The notes below the pieces were generated by a model. That model searched no databases. It was not told the origin of the DNA and was given only the letters and a program-made list of their open reading frames with translations. DNA of 64,000 nt, taken from the NCBI RefSeq assembly GCF_004634425.1, contig NZ_SBJL01000002.1, forward strand, positions 434,001-498,000, given 5' to 3'. A program made the position numbers and the translations under genes. Positions 8,379 to 16,038 of this stretch are shown in pieces; positions within the stretch are counted from its first letter, which is position 1; each line of letters opens with the position of its first letter. Source of the DNA: Vitreimonas flagellata. Its GTDB lineage: Bacteria; Pseudomonadota; Alphaproteobacteria; Caulobacterales; Aquidulcibacteraceae.

Positions 8379-9473
8379 CTACGCCCGAAGGATCGCCCGC
8401 AAGGCCTGTTCGAGCGCCTGCATCTCTGCTTCCGTACCGATCGTGATGCGTAGACAATCCGGCATGGAATAATTCTGTAACCCACGCACCAGAATGCCGC
8501 GCTCCGCCAGCGCACGCTCGATCTCGAGCGCTATGAGCGGCGCGGACTTGGGTACGCGGACCGTCACGAAATTCGCGAAAGCCGGCAACGGCGTGAGCCC
8601 GAGTTCGCGGAGGAACGCGGAGAGCTGCGCACCACCTGCTTCGACGCGCGCAAGCGATCGCGCGGAGAAGTCCGTGTCATTCAAAGCTGCAATCGCCGCC
8701 GCTTGCGCGCCGCTGGAGGCGTTGAAGGGCAAACGGATCTTGTTGAGCGTTTGGATGATCGTGGGATTGGCATAGCCCCAGCCGAGGCGAAGCGCTGCCA
8801 GGCCATAGAGCTTCGAGAACGTGCGCGTGACGATGATGTTGGACGCGTTGCGCGCGAGCTCGAAACCGGAATCGAAATCGCTGTGGCGCTCCGCAAACTC
8901 GGCATAGGCGCCATCGAGGATGAGCAGCACGTTTTCAGGAAGCGCAGCGTGCAGGCGTTTGATTTCGGCAAACGGAATGAACGTGCCGGTCGGGCTCGCC
9001 GGATTGGCGACGAACATCATGCGCGTGCGTGGCGTGATTGCGGCAAGCATCGCGTCAACGTCGACGGTGTAATCGCGTTCCGGCGCTGAGATCACGTTGG
9101 CCCCCGCCGCGCGCGCGGCGATGGCCCAAGCGGCGAAGGCGAATTGCGGCTGCACCATCTCGTCGCCGGGATTGAGGTACGCTTGGGCTGCCATCGAGAA
9201 GATTTCGTCCGAACCCGTGCCGAAAATGAGCTGCGCTGGTTCAAGACTATGTTTTTGCGCAAGCGCTTCTCGCAAGGCGTTGGCTTGCGGGTCTGGATAG
9301 ACGTGCAGCACGTTGGCGAGCGCGCGATACGCTTCCGATGCAGCGGGGCTGCAGCCGAGCGCGTTTTCGTTGGCGGAAATCTTGATCGGCTTGTCGAAGC
9401 CGGCGGCTTTGGCTTTGCCGGCCTTGTACGGCTCGATCTCGGCGATCGTGGGTTTGGCGATGGGGCCGCTCAT
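8379..9473 (-). CDS. hisC: histidinol-phosphate aminotransferase
   Basis: PLP enzyme converting imidazole acetol phosphate and glutamate to L-histidinol phosphate, 364 aa. Conserved elements include [62 protein letters not shown] and the Schiff-base lysine in [20 protein letters not shown]. It ends with [19 protein letters not shown], the C-terminal arginine region of the family. It overlaps hisIE by four bases. This is the intact HisC of the cluster, in contrast to the degenerate HisC-like part fused to HisB. Confidence 0.93.
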
Positions 9474-10084
9474 AATTTCTTCTCGCGCCCGGCCAGAACT
9501 TGCATCACATCTTCAAACGACGCGCCCCGCGCGTGCAGCAGCACGCCCAGATGATAGAGCAAATCCGCGGCTTCGTTGCAGAGTTCTTGGCTGTCGCCCA
9601 CAGCGCCAGCGAGCGCGGTTTCGACGCCCTCCTCGCCGACCTTTTGCGCAATGCGCTTAGGACCGCGTGCGATGAGTTTCGCGGTCCAGCTTTCTTCCGG
9701 CGAGGCGGTCGCGCGTTCGGCGATCGTGCGTTCGAGCGCGCCGAGTTGGCCGATGCCGCGCGTCAGCTCCGTGCCGAAGCATGTCTCATTGCCCAGATGG
9801 CAGGCCGGGCCGTGCGGTTCGGCGCGCAACAGCAACGTATCGCCGTCGCAATCGAGGCTCATCGATCGCACTTTGATGCGATGGCCTGATGTTTCACCCT
9901 TACGCCAACGACCGCCGCGCGAGCGCGAGAAGAACGTGGCTTCGCCGCTTTGAAGCGTTTCATCGAGCGCCGCGCGATCCATGTAGGCGAGCATCAACAC
10001 TTGCAGCGTTGCTGCATCCTGCACGATCGCGGGTACGAGGCCGCCGCCTTTGTCGAAATCGACTTTGCTTGGATCAAAGCTCAT
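9470..10084 (-). CDS. hisIE: bifunctional phosphoribosyl-AMP cyclohydrolase / phosphoribosyl-ATP pyrophosphatase
   Basis: Fused HisI-HisE protein of 204 aa catalysing steps 2 and 3 of histidine synthesis. The HisI half (about 1-110) has [32 protein letters not shown], the metal-binding [11 protein letters not shown] and HGPACHLG. The HisE half (about 112-204) has the helical MazG-like pattern [20 protein letters not shown] followed by [17 protein letters not shown]. It overlaps hisF and hisC by four bases on either side. In many alphaproteobacteria hisI and hisE are separate genes, so the fusion is a useful lineage marker. Confidence 0.93.
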
Positions 10085-10848
10085 GTGCGCACCTCAAAGC
10101 CGCCGGCGCGCGTAGCAAGCTTGGCTTCGCCGATGCTGACCTTGTTGAAATGAAAAATGCTCGCCGCCAGCGCGCCCGAGACGTCGGCGCCGGCGAACAC
10201 TTCGGGAAAATGCCGCGCAGCGCCGGCGCCGCCGGAGGCGATCAACGGGATGGAGAGCAATTTACGCGCGGCGGCGAGTTGCGCGATATCGTAGCCGTCG
10301 CGCGTGCCGTCCTTATCCATGCAATTCAACACGATTTCGCCGGCGCCACGCTCTTGCGCTTCCACGATCCAGTCGAGCGTGTGGCGTGAAGTCCGGCGGA
10401 TCGTGTTCACATCGCCTGTGTATTGATAGATCGACCATTCGCCATTTTCGCTGCGGCTGTCGACGCCGAGCACGACGCATTGCGAACCCGCGACGTTGGC
10501 CAGTTCGGTGATGAATTCAGGGCGTTCGAGCGCCGGCGAATTGATCGAGACTTTATCGGCGCCGTGTTCGAGGCACGCTATCGCTTGCTCCAGCGTTCGA
10601 ATGCCGCCGGCGACACACAAGGGAACGTCCAGCACGCGGGCCACGCGCGCGAGCCAAGCGTAATCGATAGTGCGCCCCTCGGCGGACGCGGCGATGTCGT
10701 AGATCACGATCTCATCGGCGCCCTCGTCGCGATAGCGCAGTGCGAGCTCGGCGGGATCGCCGGCGTCGGTGTGACCTTCGAAGCGCACGCCTTTAACGAC
10801 GCGACCGCCTTTTACATCGAGGCACGCGATGATGCGTCTAGCCGGCAA
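10081..10848 (-). CDS. hisF: imidazole glycerol phosphate synthase, cyclase subunit
   Basis: (beta/alpha)8-barrel synthase subunit that joins ammonia from HisH to PRFAR, giving IGP and AICAR, 255 aa. Catalytic aspartates lie in [15 protein letters not shown] and [14 protein letters not shown]. The frame is open to 10896, but the protein should begin [15 protein letters not shown] at 10848 with GGAGGA five bases upstream fits this exactly and lies 11 bp inside the end of hisA. I therefore call a TTG start with translational coupling to hisA. It overlaps hisIE by four bases. Confidence 0.93.
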
Positions 10849-11563
10849 GGGCGTCCTCCAAGGTGAAACGGCGTTCGTAGAGCGCGCGACCGACAATGGC
10901 GCCGGCGGCGTTTGTGCCGCGCAGTGTGGTGAGATCGTCGAGCGTGGCGACGCCGCCCGAGGCTTGCACGTCGAGGTCGGGACGCGCGGCGATGATGGTT
11001 TGCATCAGTTCGACGTTCGGGCCCGCGAGAATGCCGTCGCGCGAGACGTCGGTGACGAGGATGTGCTTCAATGCGCCGGGGGGATAAAACGCGAGCGCCT
11101 CTTCGATCGTGGCGCCGCCGCCTGCGGTCCAGCCGCCGACGACGACTTCGAACGCGCCGTCGTCGCGCCGCTTCACATCGAAGGCGCAACAAATGCGCTC
11201 GGCACCGAAGGCTTCTATCCAGGCACGCACATCTTGTGGGCGCTTCACGGCGGCGGAGCCGATGACGACACGGGCGACGCCCGCGTCGAGCAGCGCTTCG
11301 ACATGTGCGCGTTCGCGCACGCCGCCGCCACTTTGGATGCGCACGTCAGCGCTGCGTGCGAGTTCGCCGATGAGCTCGTATTGGGCTGGGCTGCCCTGCT
11401 TGGCGCCATCGAGATCAACGATGTGCACCCATTGCGCGCCGGCCTGCGCGAACGCCGCGAGCTGCTTGCGCGGATCGCCATAGCGTGTGGAATCATCGAA
11501 GCGGCCCTGCACGAGGCGCACGCACACGCCGTCTTGCAGATCGATGGCGGGATAGATCAGCAT
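10838..11563 (-). CDS. hisA: ProFAR isomerase (HisA)
   Basis: 1-(5-phosphoribosyl)-5-[(5-phosphoribosylamino)methylideneamino]imidazole-4-carboxamide isomerase, 241 aa, a beta/alpha barrel. The N-terminal catalytic Asp is in MLIYPAIDLQDGVCVRLVQG. The second acid is in VTDVSRDGILAGPNVELM, and the phosphate loops follow GGVRERAHVEALLDAGVARV and QASGGVATLDDL. The start is ATG 11563, since family members begin MLIYPAIDL; the open frame continues upstream inside hisH and is spurious there. The start overlaps the hisH stop by seven bases. Confidence 0.94.
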   Translation of the reverse strand: MLIYPAIDLQDGVCVRLVQGRFDDSTRYGDPRKQLAAFAQAGAQWVHIVDLDGAKQGSPAQYELIGELARSADVRIQSGGGVRERAHVEALLDAGVARVVIGSAAVKRPQDVRAWIEAFGAERICCAFDVKRRDDGAFEVVVGGWTAGGGATIEEALAFYPPGALKHILVTDVSRDGILAGPNVELMQTIIAARPDLDVQASGGVATLDDLTTLRGTNAAGAIVGRALYERRFTLEDALAG

Positions 11564-12153
11564 GGCAGGCTCAAGAAGTTCTCGAGAATGCGCGCGCCGA
11601 CGGCGCTGGAGCGTTCGGGGTGAAACTGGCAGCCGTACGCGTTGCCGCGATTGACGATGGCGGCGAAGCGTTGGCCGTACGCTGCGCTGGCGATGGTATT
11701 GGCATCGATCGGGCAGACATAAGAGTGCACGAAGTAGGCGTAAGCGCCGTCTTCGACGCCTTCGAGCAATGCATTGTCTTGTTCGATCTTGAGCTTGCTC
11801 CAGCCCATGTGCGGCGCCGGCGCCTCCTTTGATGCGGGCAAGCGCGTGACACGGCCGGGCAGAAGCGCGAGCCCCTCCGCGTCGCCCTCTTCGCTGGACT
11901 CGAAGAGCAATTGTTGGCCGAGGCATACGCCGAGCAATGGGCGTTTGAAGGCGCGCAGCACGTCGCGGAGACCCTTTTTCGCGATGAGATCCATCGCGTG
12001 CGCGGCGGCGCCGACGCCCGGCAAAATGATGCGTTCGGCACCACCGATGCGCGCAGGATCGTCGGTGAGCGTTGCGGGTGCGTTCAGGCGCTCCAATGCG
12101 AACATCACCGACGCGGTGTTGCCGACTCCCAGCTTCACAACCACGGTCGACAT
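11557..12153 (-). CDS. hisH: imidazole glycerol phosphate synthase, glutaminase subunit
   Basis: Class I glutamine amidotransferase partner of HisF, 198 aa. The nucleophile Cys77 is in LLGVCLGQQLLFE, and the His/Glu of the triad is in YGCQFHPERSSAVG. The oxyanion region LPGVGAAAHAM is present. One oddity is the first strand, VVVKLGVGNTASV, where most HisH proteins have an acidic residue (for example IDYGxGN) in place of the KLG. It overlaps hisB by one base and hisA by seven. Confidence 0.92.
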   Translation of the reverse strand: MSTVVVKLGVGNTASVMFALERLNAPATLTDDPARIGGAERIILPGVGAAAHAMDLIAKKGLRDVLRAFKRPLLGVCLGQQLLFESSEEGDAEGLALLPGRVTRLPASKEAPAPHMGWSKLKIEQDNALLEGVEDGAYAYFVHSYVCPIDANTIASAAYGQRFAAIVNRGNAYGCQFHPERSSAVGARILENFLSLPC

Positions 12154-13574
12154 CAGATCGAGCCTTTGGTCGACGGCACGCGATCGCCTTCGATGCGCAC
12201 GGCTTGGCGCAATGCGCGGCCGAAGGCTTTGAAGCAGGCTTCGGTTTTGTGGTGATCGTTTTCGCCGGTGACGGAGACGTGGATCGCCGCGCCCATGCTT
12301 TGCGCGAGCGAGCGGAAAACGTGCTCGGTCATTTCGGTGGGATATTCACCGAGCAAAGGCGCGTCGAATTTGCCGTCGAACATCAAGTACGGCCGGCCGC
12401 CAAGATCGACGGAGACTTTTGCCTCCGCCTCGTCCATCGGCAACACGAAGCCGAAGCGCGCGATGCCGCGGCGTGCGCCGAGCGCCTCTTTCAAGGCTTG
12501 GCCGAGCGCGAGCGCTGCATCTTCGATGGAGTGGTGTGTGTCGACGTCGAGATCGCCGGCGCAGGTGAGCGCGAGCGTGAAGCCGCCGTGCGTGGCGATC
12601 TGCGAGAGCATGTGATCGTAGAAGCCGACGCCTGTGTTGATCTGTGGCGTGGTTTCGGAATCGAGATCGATTTGTGCGACGATGCGTGTTTCGAGCGTTT
12701 CGCGAACGACCTCGCTGCGGCGTGCGCTGGATTTGACTTCGACGCCGAACGCGGCAAGCGCGCGGTCGTTGGTTTCGGGCTTGAAGCTGATGGGCAGACG
12801 CAGCGTGTTGGCGTCGAGCCATTCGGCATCGATGGCGAATTTTCGAAGCGCGGCGCGTGCTTCTTCCGGGTTTTCCACCTGGAGCGATACGGCGGGGCCC
12901 TCTTCTGCGCGCGCGTTCAGCGCTTTTGCGACGCGGGCGCGCTCAACTTTCACCTGTTCGACGCGGAGCGCGTTGGCGTTGACACGGGCAGGATCGAGTG
13001 CGGCGAGCGCGAGTTTGATAATGGGCGTTGGCAGCGCGTCAGGTTCGAGCACGTCGCGCAGCTTGGCGATCGTGGCGGGTGCGGCAATGGCTGCGCCGCA
13101 GGGCGCGCCGGCTAGGCCATAGGCTTGGGCGAGCGAACGGAGAACGATGACGTTATCTTGCTGCGCGGCGAACGCGGCGAGCGACGCGCGATCGGCGAAT
13201 TCGATGGCGCTTTCGTCGATGACGAGCAGCGCGGGCGCGATCTGCTCGGCTTTCGTGCGTGCTTCCGCTTCGCTCAGCGGGGTAACGATCGCGGCGCCGG
13301 CGCCTGCGTCGTCGTTCACGAGATCGAGGCCAGAGATGCGGGCGAGAGTCTGCAGCGCCTGCGTGCGAGGCGCGGAGACCTTGACGAAGCCATCGAGCGC
13401 GACGCTGCGAAACACCAGTTCGATGCCGTGTAGCGCACCACGCACGGGCAGCACGGCGCCTTCATCGACGCCGTACATCTCCGCCATGCGCTGTTGCAGC
13501 GCTTTGGGCGATTGCGGTGGGGCGTCGAGGCCGTCGCCATTGGCGACGAGCGGCGGGAACGGCGCGCGCATCAT
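12153..13574 (-). CDS. hisB: imidazoleglycerol-phosphate dehydratase with N-terminal degenerate HisC-like domain
   Basis: Fusion of 473 aa. Residues about 285-473 are a complete HisB (IGP dehydratase) domain with both metal motifs, THHSIEDAALALG (346-358) and ENDHHKTEACFKAFG (438-452). Residues about 1-278 align by eye with the fold of E. coli-type HisC: VLPVRGALHGIELVFRS, LLVIDESAIEFADRASLAAF and NVIVLRSLAQAYGLAG. The aminotransferase site is broken. The PLP lysine position is Gln150 (LAQAYGLAG instead of LSKAF), the phosphate Arg position is Pro158, the Tyr of DEAYIEF is Ala123, and the SPNNPTG loop is missing; Asp120 is kept. It is therefore probably a non-catalytic domain on an active dehydratase. 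E. coli HisB carries an unrelated phosphatase domain instead. It overlaps hisD by four bases and hisH by one. Confidence 0.88.
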   Translation of the reverse strand: MMRAPFPPLVANGDGLDAPPQSPKALQQRMAEMYGVDEGAVLPVRGALHGIELVFRSVALDGFVKVSAPRTQALQTLARISGLDLVNDDAGAGAAIVTPLSEAEARTKAEQIAPALLVIDESAIEFADRASLAAFAAQQDNVIVLRSLAQAYGLAGAPCGAAIAAPATIAKLRDVLEPDALPTPIIKLALAALDPARVNANALRVEQVKVERARVAKALNARAEEGPAVSLQVENPEEARAALRKFAIDAEWLDANTLRLPISFKPETNDRALAAFGVEVKSSARRSEVVRETLETRIVAQIDLDSETTPQINTGVGFYDHMLSQIATHGGFTLALTCAGDLDVDTHHSIEDAALALGQALKEALGARRGIARFGFVLPMDEAEAKVSVDLGGRPYLMFDGKFDAPLLGEYPTEMTEHVFRSLAQSMGAAIHVSVTGENDHHKTEACFKAFGRALRQAVRIEGDRVPSTKGSI

Positions 13575-14860
13575 TGCACCCGCACGTCGGCGGCGCGGGC
13601 GTGCGCCTCTAAGCCTTCGAGCCGCGCCAGGCGCGCAGCGGCGGGCGCGAGCGCACGAGCGCCCTGCTCGTTCATTTCTTGCACGACGAAGCTCTTCATA
13701 AACGACGCGACATTGACGCCGCTCCAGGCGCGCGCGGCGCCATCGGTGGGAAGCACGTGGCTTGGGCCGCAGATGTAGTCGCCGAACGTCTCGGCGCTCC
13801 AGGCGCCGACGAAGATTGCTCCGGCGTTGTTGAGCTGCGCAATGAGCGGTTCGGTGTTGGCGACTTGCAGCGACAAGTGCTCTGGCGCGTAAGCGTTCGA
13901 GACGTCCGCCGCTTCGCTGGCGTCACGCACGCGGATGAGGCGCGCCTGCGCGAGCGAGGCCTGCGCGATTTCGGCGCGCGGGAGTGATGGCGTTTGCAGT
14001 TCGAGCTCACGCGCGACGGCGCTGACGATGGCGTCCGATGTTGCGACGAGAACGACTTGCGCGTCAGTATCGTGCTCAGCTTGGCTGAGCAGATCAGCGG
14101 CGACGATGCGCGGATCGGCGCCATCGTCGGCGATGACCATGAGTTCGCTGGGGCCGGCGGGCACGTCGATCACTGGGCCGCCGGGCAGCGAGGCGGCGTA
14201 GCGTTTGGCTTCAGTGACGAAGGCGTTGCCGGGGCCGAAGATTTTTTCGGCTTTGGGCACACCGGCGCCGAACGTGAGCGCGGCGATGGCTTGTGCGCCG
14301 CCGACGAGTGAGAGCGTTTCGATGCCGCAGGCGGCGGCGGCGGCGATGATCATCGGGTGCGGCGCGCCATCGCCTTTGCCCGGCGGCGTGACGACGATGC
14401 GTTCGCGTACGCCGGCGACACGCGCGGGTGCGGCGAGCATGATGAGCGTTGAAAAAAGCGGCGCGGTGCCGCCGGGAATGTAGAGACCGCAACTGGCGAT
14501 CGCGCGCCACACACGGCGGCAGCGCACACCGGCGCGAACTTCGATCTCTTGCGTCTTGGGTTTGATGGCTTCGTGGTAGCGCGTGACGTTGTCGATGGCG
14601 ATGGCGAGCGCTTCGAGGTCTTCGCGCGTGAGCTTGGCGCGCGCAGCGTCCACAACGCTGGCGTTGAGCGCGAGCGTTTGCGGCGCGCGCTTGTCGATGG
14701 TTTCGGACCAGCGCTTGACCGCCGCCTCGCCTTCACGCTCCACGTCATCGAAAATACGGCGCACAACGTCCGCGACTTCATTGTCGCGGCGGCGCGCAGG
14801 CCGTGCGAGCGCGGCTTGGCGCTCGGCGGCGTTCAGATTGCTCCACTCGAACCGCTTCAT
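13571..14860 (-). CDS. hisD: histidinol dehydrogenase
   Basis: NAD-dependent zinc enzyme performing the last two oxidations from histidinol to histidine, 429 aa, of normal length. Conserved stretches are YIPGGTAPLFSTLIMLA, IFGPGNAFVTEAKR, DVPAGPSELMVIADDGADP, LLSQAEHDTDAQ, AYAPEHLSLQ and the zinc/substrate segment GPSHVLPTDGAARAWSGV. It sits one base after hisG and overlaps the hisB fusion gene by four bases, so it is tightly within the operon. Confidence 0.95.
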   Translation of the reverse strand: MKRFEWSNLNAAERQAALARPARRRDNEVADVVRRIFDDVEREGEAAVKRWSETIDKRAPQTLALNASVVDAARAKLTREDLEALAIAIDNVTRYHEAIKPKTQEIEVRAGVRCRRVWRAIASCGLYIPGGTAPLFSTLIMLAAPARVAGVRERIVVTPPGKGDGAPHPMIIAAAAACGIETLSLVGGAQAIAALTFGAGVPKAEKIFGPGNAFVTEAKRYAASLPGGPVIDVPAGPSELMVIADDGADPRIVAADLLSQAEHDTDAQVVLVATSDAIVSAVARELELQTPSLPRAEIAQASLAQARLIRVRDASEAADVSNAYAPEHLSLQVANTEPLIAQLNNAGAIFVGAWSAETFGDYICGPSHVLPTDGAARAWSGVNVASFMKSFVVQEMNEQGARALAPAAARLARLEGLEAHARAADVRVQ

Positions 14861-14861
14861 C

Positions 14862-15737
14862 TCACATCATCTTTTCGATCGGCAGCACAAGAATGGCGCT
14901 GGCGCCGGCGGCTTTAAGTTCTTCGAGCGTTTCCCAGAACACGGATTCTTGGCAAACGGCGTGCACGGCGACCATGTCGTCGCTGCCCGCGAGCGGTGTG
15001 ACGGTTGGCGAGCCGGCGCCTGGCAGGATCGCACTGATCTTGGGCAACACAGCGCGCGGCGCGTTCATCATCACGTATTTGGCGCCGCGGCAGGATGTGA
15101 CGCCTTTGAAGCGCTGCACGACGCTTTCGGCGACTTTCTCCAATTCCGGATCGATTTTCCTCGGCGCGCGGATCAGCACGGCTTCGCTGCGAAGCACGGT
15201 ATCGAGTGGGGCCAAGCCATTGGCTTCGAGCGTGGCGCCCGTTGAAACGAGATCGCAGATGGCGTTGGCGAGCTTCAAGCGCGGGGCGACTTCGACGGCG
15301 CCGCGCATGGTAATGATGTCCGCCGTGACGCCGTTTTCCGTAAGGAAACGATTGAGGACATGCGGATAGGTCGTGGCGATGCGCAGGCCTTGCAGCGAAC
15401 GAGGGCCATTGTAGGCAAAGCCAATCGGTGCGGCGAGTCTCAGATCGCATTTGCCAAAGCCGAGCGCCATCACTTGCTCAGGTTCGGCGCTGCGGCCGTC
15501 TTCGCGCTCTTCGAGCACGTTGAGGCCGACGATACCGAGATCAGCGACGCCGTCGCCAACGAAGGTAGGGATGTCGTCATCGCGCACGCGCAGGAGATCG
15601 ATCGGCGCGTTCTCGATGCGATAGAGCAATTCGTTCGCGCCCTTGAGGACGCGCAGGCCCGCCGCTTCGAGTAATTCGAGGCTCTTGTCGGCGAGGCGGC
15701 CACTCTTCTGAATGGCGATGCGGAGACGTGCGGACAT
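14862..15737 (-). CDS. hisG: ATP phosphoribosyltransferase, long form
   Basis: First and feedback-regulated step of histidine synthesis, 291 aa. The length and C-terminal part (RGAKYVMMNAPRAVLPKISA through AVCQESVFWETLEELKAAGA) identify the long HisG form, which has its own ACT-like regulatory domain and does not need HisZ. The catalytic part shows IAIQKSGRLADKSLELLEAA and the PRPP loop around DLVSTGATLEANGL. It follows the YerC-like regulator gene after a one-base gap. Confidence 0.94.
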   Translation of the reverse strand: MSARLRIAIQKSGRLADKSLELLEAAGLRVLKGANELLYRIENAPIDLLRVRDDDIPTFVGDGVADLGIVGLNVLEEREDGRSAEPEQVMALGFGKCDLRLAAPIGFAYNGPRSLQGLRIATTYPHVLNRFLTENGVTADIITMRGAVEVAPRLKLANAICDLVSTGATLEANGLAPLDTVLRSEAVLIRAPRKIDPELEKVAESVVQRFKGVTSCRGAKYVMMNAPRAVLPKISAILPGAGSPTVTPLAGSDDMVAVHAVCQESVFWETLEELKAAGASAILVLPIEKMM

Positions 15738-15738
15738 T

Positions 15739-16038
15739 TTAGGCGGCTTTCAAACGATCGAGGATGCGGCGATAGCCGCGATACGGCATGTCTTTGAGGA
15801 AGCGCGCGACGCGCGTGACGGTCGCGGTGCTGGCTGTCGCGACCTTGGCGATGTCGCGATAGGAAAGCTCGCCTTGGTCTAGGAGACGCGCGACGTGCCA
15901 GCGTTCGTTGAGCGCTTTGAGTTCGCTGGGCGTGCAGAGATCGGCGAGAAACGCCTCAGCTTCCTTGCGGTCACGGAGCGAGAGGATCGCGTCATAGACG
16001 TCGGGGCGCAGCGCGCCGGATTGAGCTTGTTTTGCCAT
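15739..16038 (-). CDS. YerC/YecD family TrpR-like regulator heading the his operon
   Basis: Small all-helical DNA-binding protein of 99 aa in the TrpR superfamily. The helix-turn-helix is near SYRDIAKVATASTATVTRVARFL (about residues 60-82), preceded by the TrpR-like LCTPSELKALNERWHVARLL. It is the first gene of the histidine operon and ends one base before hisG. YerC-type proteins in Gram-positive bacteria have been proposed as histidine-operon repressors (HisR). By position this one is a candidate autoregulated his repressor, possibly with histidine as co-repressor; that function is inferred. Confidence 0.85.
   Translation of the reverse strand: MAKQAQSGALRPDVYDAILSLRDRKEAEAFLADLCTPSELKALNERWHVARLLDQGELSYRDIAKVATASTATVTRVARFLKDMPYRGYRRILDRLKAA

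Follow-up and report, generated by a model that had tools for sequence, protein, structure and literature searches.

What keeps an apparently dead enzyme domain in front of a working one? The question is raised by a his operon in a 64,000-nucleotide stretch of the Vitreimonas flagellata genome (the window), where HisB forms the rear part of a fusion protein whose front part resembles HisC. We analyzed this fusion together with its relatives, and propose that the front domain probably persists as a carrier of HisB.

The fusion gene and its operon

All genes of the operon lie on the minus strand. A TrpR-repressor-like gene (15739..16038) stands at its head, followed by hisG (14862..15737; Pfam HisG 162 bits, HisG_C 90 bits) and hisD (13571..14860), which overlaps the start of the fusion gene by 4 bases. 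HisD and the fusion are encoded here by a pair of genes that is a single gene in relatives with a HisD-HisB protein. The fusion ORF encodes the HisC-like domain (residues 1-283, 12726..13574) and the HisB (imidazoleglycerol-phosphate dehydratase) domain (residues 284-473 plus the stop codon, 12153..12725). Further downstream are hisH, a glutamine amidotransferase gene named from its Pfam class (GATase, 69 bits) and its place in the operon (11557..12153), hisA (10838..11563; Pfam His_biosynth 223 bits), hisF (10081..10896; His_biosynth 227 bits) and hisIE (9470..10084; PRA-CH 107 bits, PRA-PH 71 bits). hisA and hisF were told apart by gene order, and a longer hisA ORF (10838-11926) takes in an upstream in-frame stretch.

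The gene at 8379..9473 is a stand-alone, intact hisC of another HisC clade (hisC2), in agreement with the earlier note, which had placed a separate hisC in the same operon. The presence of hisC2 makes the fused HisC redundant. In the stand-alone HisC of the window, the usual NPxNPTG reads NPASPTG, with Ser replacing Asn; four relatives (G023, G005, G015 and G026) share this variant, and others retain the Asn.

The HisB part appears intact, as previously claimed: it scored 247.4 bits against the curated model NF002111 (cut-off 231) and carries both His-His-x-x-Glu metal motifs, HHSIED from residue 347 and HHKTEA from residue 441. The motif residues H347, H348, E351, H441, H442 and E445 are invariant across 23 aligned rows. 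The top-scoring model for the C-terminal part was NF003937 (HisNB) with 280 bits, below its cut-off of 443; it was matched at model positions 157-354 only, leaving the HisN phosphatase domain unmatched. The fusion thus differs from E. coli HisB (HisNB, histidinol-phosphatase/IGP dehydratase), as proposed before. Both proteins place an enzyme of the same pathway ahead of HisB, but the partner is HisN in E. coli and a HisC with its catalytic residues gone in the window. Furthermore, the window gene contains no ATG, GTG or TTG between codon 233 and an ATG at codon 322; the common start codons thus give no reason to expect a separate HisB from about residue 284 on.

Loss of catalytic residues and retention of the HisC fold

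The N-terminal domain matched the HisC model TIGR01141 with 80.7 bits, below the cut-off of 276.55, and keeps the fold type I aminotransferase fold, which upholds its proposed relationship to HisC. Genome G040, whose fused HisC is intact, served as the reference for a comparison at 12 positions of the HisC active site or arm. Three were kept (the Ala of the PLP-phosphate motif, the Asp of DExY and the Arg of RITIG), and the other nine were changed, including the Lys, the phosphate Arg, the Tyr and the Asp of GADE in the PLP-phosphate motif. As the earlier note had read them, the PLP lysine is Gln150, the phosphate arginine Pro158 and the tyrosine Ala123, and the NPTG segment is absent. The same note took the remnant to be full length, which it is not: the first 35 residues and internal pieces of 19, 7 and 3 residues are missing. 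Relative to HisC (TIGR01141; E. coli structures 1gew and 1fg3), the domain lacks the catalytic Lys, the phosphate Arg, the NPTG segment and the N-terminal arm.

Among relatives, Lys, phosphate Arg, Asp and Tyr are all present in 20/20 intact fusions. At the PLP-Lys position, Lys occurs in all 20 of these and in none of 45 other aligned fusions, two of which are gapped there. The change to Gln is not fixed: the position reads Q, L, I, A, Y or M across 10 Terricaulis-type genomes and is mostly Leu in the Brevundimonas type, with Leu in all 25 genomes read out of 41 with the dead fusion and, in a set of 43 rows (42 distinct) from a named scan plus three loci, Leu in 41, Met in one and Phe in one. 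Judging from these residues, the fused HisC domain is apparently catalytically dead.

Is such a domain free to drift? We estimated dN/dS by the Nei-Gojobori method, keeping pairs with dS under 1.2 in both HisB and HisD (858/861 Brevundimonas-type pairs from 42 rows, 2/3 among the window's kin, 10/10 in g51 and 5/45 among intact fusions). As the genes are GC-rich and the pairs non-independent, comparison between domains is safer than the absolute values. The Brevundimonas-type medians were 0.331 for the dead domain, 0.159 for HisB and 0.285 for HisD, and those of g51 were 0.289, 0.115 and 0.185, respectively. Between the window gene and G023, the values were about 0.15, 0.07 and 0.06, and in the five intact-fusion pairs the medians were 0.236 for the HisC domain, 0.145 for HisB and 0.202 for HisD. 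Thus the dN/dS of the domain is two to two and a half times that of HisB when the domain is dead, and 1.6 times when it is intact. Identity reaches at least 97% in 90 alignment columns of the 43 Brevundimonas-type rows (42 distinct). These results indicate that the dead domain is far from neutral and is under purifying selection. Its open reading frame proves nothing in this respect, because HisB lies downstream in the same ORF.

Relatives, origin and repeated inactivation

The survey covered 112 genomes, taken as first-listed loci or picked to cover every type, and is non-random. As the earlier note had anticipated, homologues share the fusion, in the Brevundimonas type, g51 and the Terricaulis type. 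Among 45 Brevundimonas-type genomes (g10), three gave no match, Peiella sedimenti (G139) has an intact fusion, and the 41 other fusions, among the matches listed, all align end to end from residue 3 to 472. Intact HisC-HisB also occurs in Sphingosinicella, Marinicaulis and Robiginitomaculum records. In all, 20 genomes have homologues that keep the lysine, but the window copy is no lone decay.

The window's genus, which includes records named Terricaulis and Hyphomonadaceae, comprised 30 genomes: 10 with the dead domain, 12 with HisD-HisB, one truncated, one with a native-type HisB and six with no HisB. HisD-HisB without any HisC remnant is thus found in 12 of the 23 genomes whose HisB is of the fusion's type, so the HisC domain is replaceable. 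The structural role suggested by the earlier note is plausible in view of the purifying selection and the 41/41 end-to-end matches among those listed, but not an indispensable one. Elsewhere, 21 genomes retain only about 190 residues of the domain, and G628 has a fusion-type HisB without any N-terminal domain. HisD, HisC and HisB share one ORF in Sphingomonas parva (L228:3901-7539(+)) and in an alphaproteobacterial MAG (L223:3670-7539(+)); in the former, each part scored above its curated cut-off, so three pathway enzymes in one polypeptide are possible.

Several genomes of the survey deserve separate mention. A genus-mate of the window (G009, L130) has an unfused native-type HisB with hisH, hisA, hisF and hisIE-like genes behind it, which places the two his operon types in the same genus. 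In Terricaulis sp. G015 (L205/L118), hisD is broken up into three reading frames, its beginning lying in one ORF with hisG; an error in sequencing or assembly may be the cause. The IGP dehydratase domain was absent from 11 of the 12 genomes searched for it: ten are 92-100% complete (G007, G021, G024, G025, G111, G242, G322, G355, G090 and G109, with G111, G242 and G322 under the Brevundimonas genus code) and the eleventh, G003, is 82% complete. The ten near-complete genomes may be histidine auxotrophs.

Gammaproteobacteria and related MAGs have the same operon order (TrpR-like, G, D, C, NB, H, A, F, IE). Their HisC is separate, and their HisB lies in most cases behind a HisN domain; a gene similar to the window's TrpR-like one also stands first in most gammaproteobacterial his operons fetched. 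The fused HisC groups with the HisC of these operons, and the stand-alone HisC proteins, from the window and from related genomes, lie across a branch of support 100. The fused HisC therefore belongs to the gammaproteobacterial-type operon and the second HisC to the other clade. Of two quick trees carrying SH-aLRT support only, the first was built with 15 Brevundimonas-type rows and the 4 unfused-HisB rows dropped; the second, a concatenated operon tree, comprised 55 rows (43 genomes and 12 named loci, hand-picked to represent all types). Forcing all inactivated operons together on the operon tree costs 288 log-likelihood units and is rejected (AU p 4e-6). Parsimony on the same tree needs four changes between alive and dead, so, if a lost active site never returns, at least four inactivations took place: in G129, in the family f4 clade of remnant and HisD-HisB forms, in G158, and one or more times in the clade of Brevundimonas type, g51 and the window's group. 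HisD-HisB emerged at least within the window's genus and within family f4, and a single origin in the former is not rejected (p 0.28).

We ran TIGR01141 on 73 genomes of the 112. Where the fused HisC is dead or gone, 51 of 53 genomes have a second HisC above the family cut-off, all but G016 (65% complete) and G124 (275.6 bits against 276.55); where the fusion is intact, 5 of 20 have one. The Fisher test gave p 1e-9, ignoring relatedness; with only three phylogenetically independent pairs, the association with redundancy cannot reach significance. The five intact fusions beside a second HisC indicate that redundancy does not always kill the domain at once.

Why the domain persists, and what it resembles

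Taking into account the tree placement, the repeated inactivation and the selection on the domain, we consider it somewhat more probable than not that a redundant fused HisC became a dead carrier of HisB, its fold kept for translational and structural reasons. The ancestor would have been a HisC-HisB enzyme of a gammaproteobacterial-type operon (TrpR-like, G, D, C, [N]B, H, A, F, IE) in which HisN was missing and HisC was joined straight to HisB, where elsewhere HisN and HisB are fused and HisC is separate. The host's HisC of the other clade may then have made the fused one redundant, and in at least four operon lineages it separately lost the cofactor lysine, the phosphate arginine, the PLP loop and the NPTG segment. 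Two constraints may explain why the domain is retained: behind it HisB lacks an independent translation start, and delivery of HisB would depend on a front end that is folded and soluble. Selection would then hold the fold and not the chemistry. In-frame deletions would shrink the domain from about 350 to 280 and then 190 residues, and in some lineages it would disappear, with HisB becoming fused to the upstream hisD. The bare HisB of G628 means that a carrier is not universally needed. Moreover, of 102 dead-fusion loci, a count in which some genomes figure more than once, 58 have a start-type codon (ATG, GTG or TTG) among the 40 codons that precede HisB, and 13 of these have an ATG; the translation argument is thus not watertight outside the window.

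HisB assembles as a 24-subunit complex; our structure model of the window fusion is a monomer. We tentatively entertain that gammaproteobacterial-type HisB has a carrier slot, its folding or oligomer assembly requiring a folded domain in front, which HisN, live HisC, dead HisC, the 190-residue remnant, HisD or HisD-HisC could fill interchangeably. Dead HisC would then be an enzyme turned assembly factor at least four times independently. G628 limits this reading too.

Alternatively, the domain may be a functionless remnant that is hard to remove, its slow change reflecting selection against a misfolded or toxic front end. The HisD-HisB forms lacking it, the 21 shortened remnants and the varied replacements of the lysine all fit this idea, and a remnant kept just from misfolding would look similar to a carrier. 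However, in the Brevundimonas type the dN/dS of the dead domain is near that of hisD and modestly above that of the intact HisC domain, and the 90 conserved columns and full-length alignments also speak against it; we regard it as rather unlikely.

An allosteric or sensory role, with dead HisC binding imidazole acetol phosphate or histidinol phosphate and tuning HisB, seems improbable. The conserved charged residues R45, D120, E121, R146, R259 and R271, together with R158 in the Brevundimonas type, could be a retained ligand site: across the three groups compared D120 is present in 40/40 dead rows, R259 occurs in 34/35 Terricaulis- and Brevundimonas-type rows, and position 158 is Arg in 25/25 Brevundimonas-type and 5/5 g51 rows. 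But that position is Pro in 10/10 Terricaulis-type rows, the RITIG Arg is absent in 5/5 g51 rows, and nine of the 12 positions are changed in the window. The PLP/substrate pocket is dismantled in different ways in different lineages, with the fold as the shared feature and no common pocket conserved, so the intermediate sensing raised in the earlier note is unlikely.

HisC enzymes are homodimers, and both genes lie in one operon here; the dead domain might thus pair with live stand-alone HisC and anchor it to HisB as a pathway complex, as the same note had also suggested. We find this very unlikely, since the two belong to clades split by the support-100 branch, are 20% identical, and the dead domain has lost its N-terminal arm; moreover, no second hisC was found next to the operon in the fetched loci of the Brevundimonas type, where it lies elsewhere. 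That the retained fold still works as HisC through unusual chemistry is hardly credible, given the lost Lys, phosphate Arg, Tyr, NPTG and GADE Asp and the full separate HisC.

Histidine biosynthesis is a textbook case for the origin and persistence of gene fusions. Related genomes show one and the same fused domain as intact, redundant, freshly dead, dead but conserved, shrunken and replaced. They give a stepwise record of an enzyme becoming a passive passenger or the carrier we favor, and make it testable, as is rarely the case, whether a dead domain persists as useful or as undroppable. Neither aminotransferase nor histidinol-phosphatase activity should be assigned to Brevundimonas-type HisB, and new multifunctional enzymes may be encoded by HisD-HisB and HisD-HisC-HisB genes.

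A dead enzyme relative kept in this pathway has a precedent in HisZ, which is related to histidyl-tRNA synthetase. HisZ differs in fold, forms a subunit of its own and has a known role as regulator of short HisG, whereas the dead HisC domain is fused and would act as a carrier. In the part of PMC8305728 drawn on here, the E. coli operon order is that of the window, and Balneolota HisB has a short N-terminal domain unlike HisN, with no recognised function; its origin is not known there, whereas the window domain is traced to HisC. The pathway-gene fusions listed in Fani et al. 2007 (hisNB, hisIE, HIS4 and HIS7; PMC1963479) resemble the window's in kind; its main text has 0 occurrences of the term hisC, and HisC-HisB, HisD-HisB and HisD-HisC-HisB are not among the fusions in the part drawn on here. 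Open-licence titles and abstracts yielded no description of HisC-HisB, HisD-HisB or a dead HisC on HisB, a result that may be wrong. Fusions of his genes and dead enzyme domains are already known; the combination and the graded series appear to be new.

A gammaproteobacterial MAG (L214:6905-7918(+)) carries HisB behind a degenerate HisN-like domain, which gave no Pfam phosphatase match. The first Asp of its HAD motif reads Gln, and here too the partner in front of HisB may be dead.
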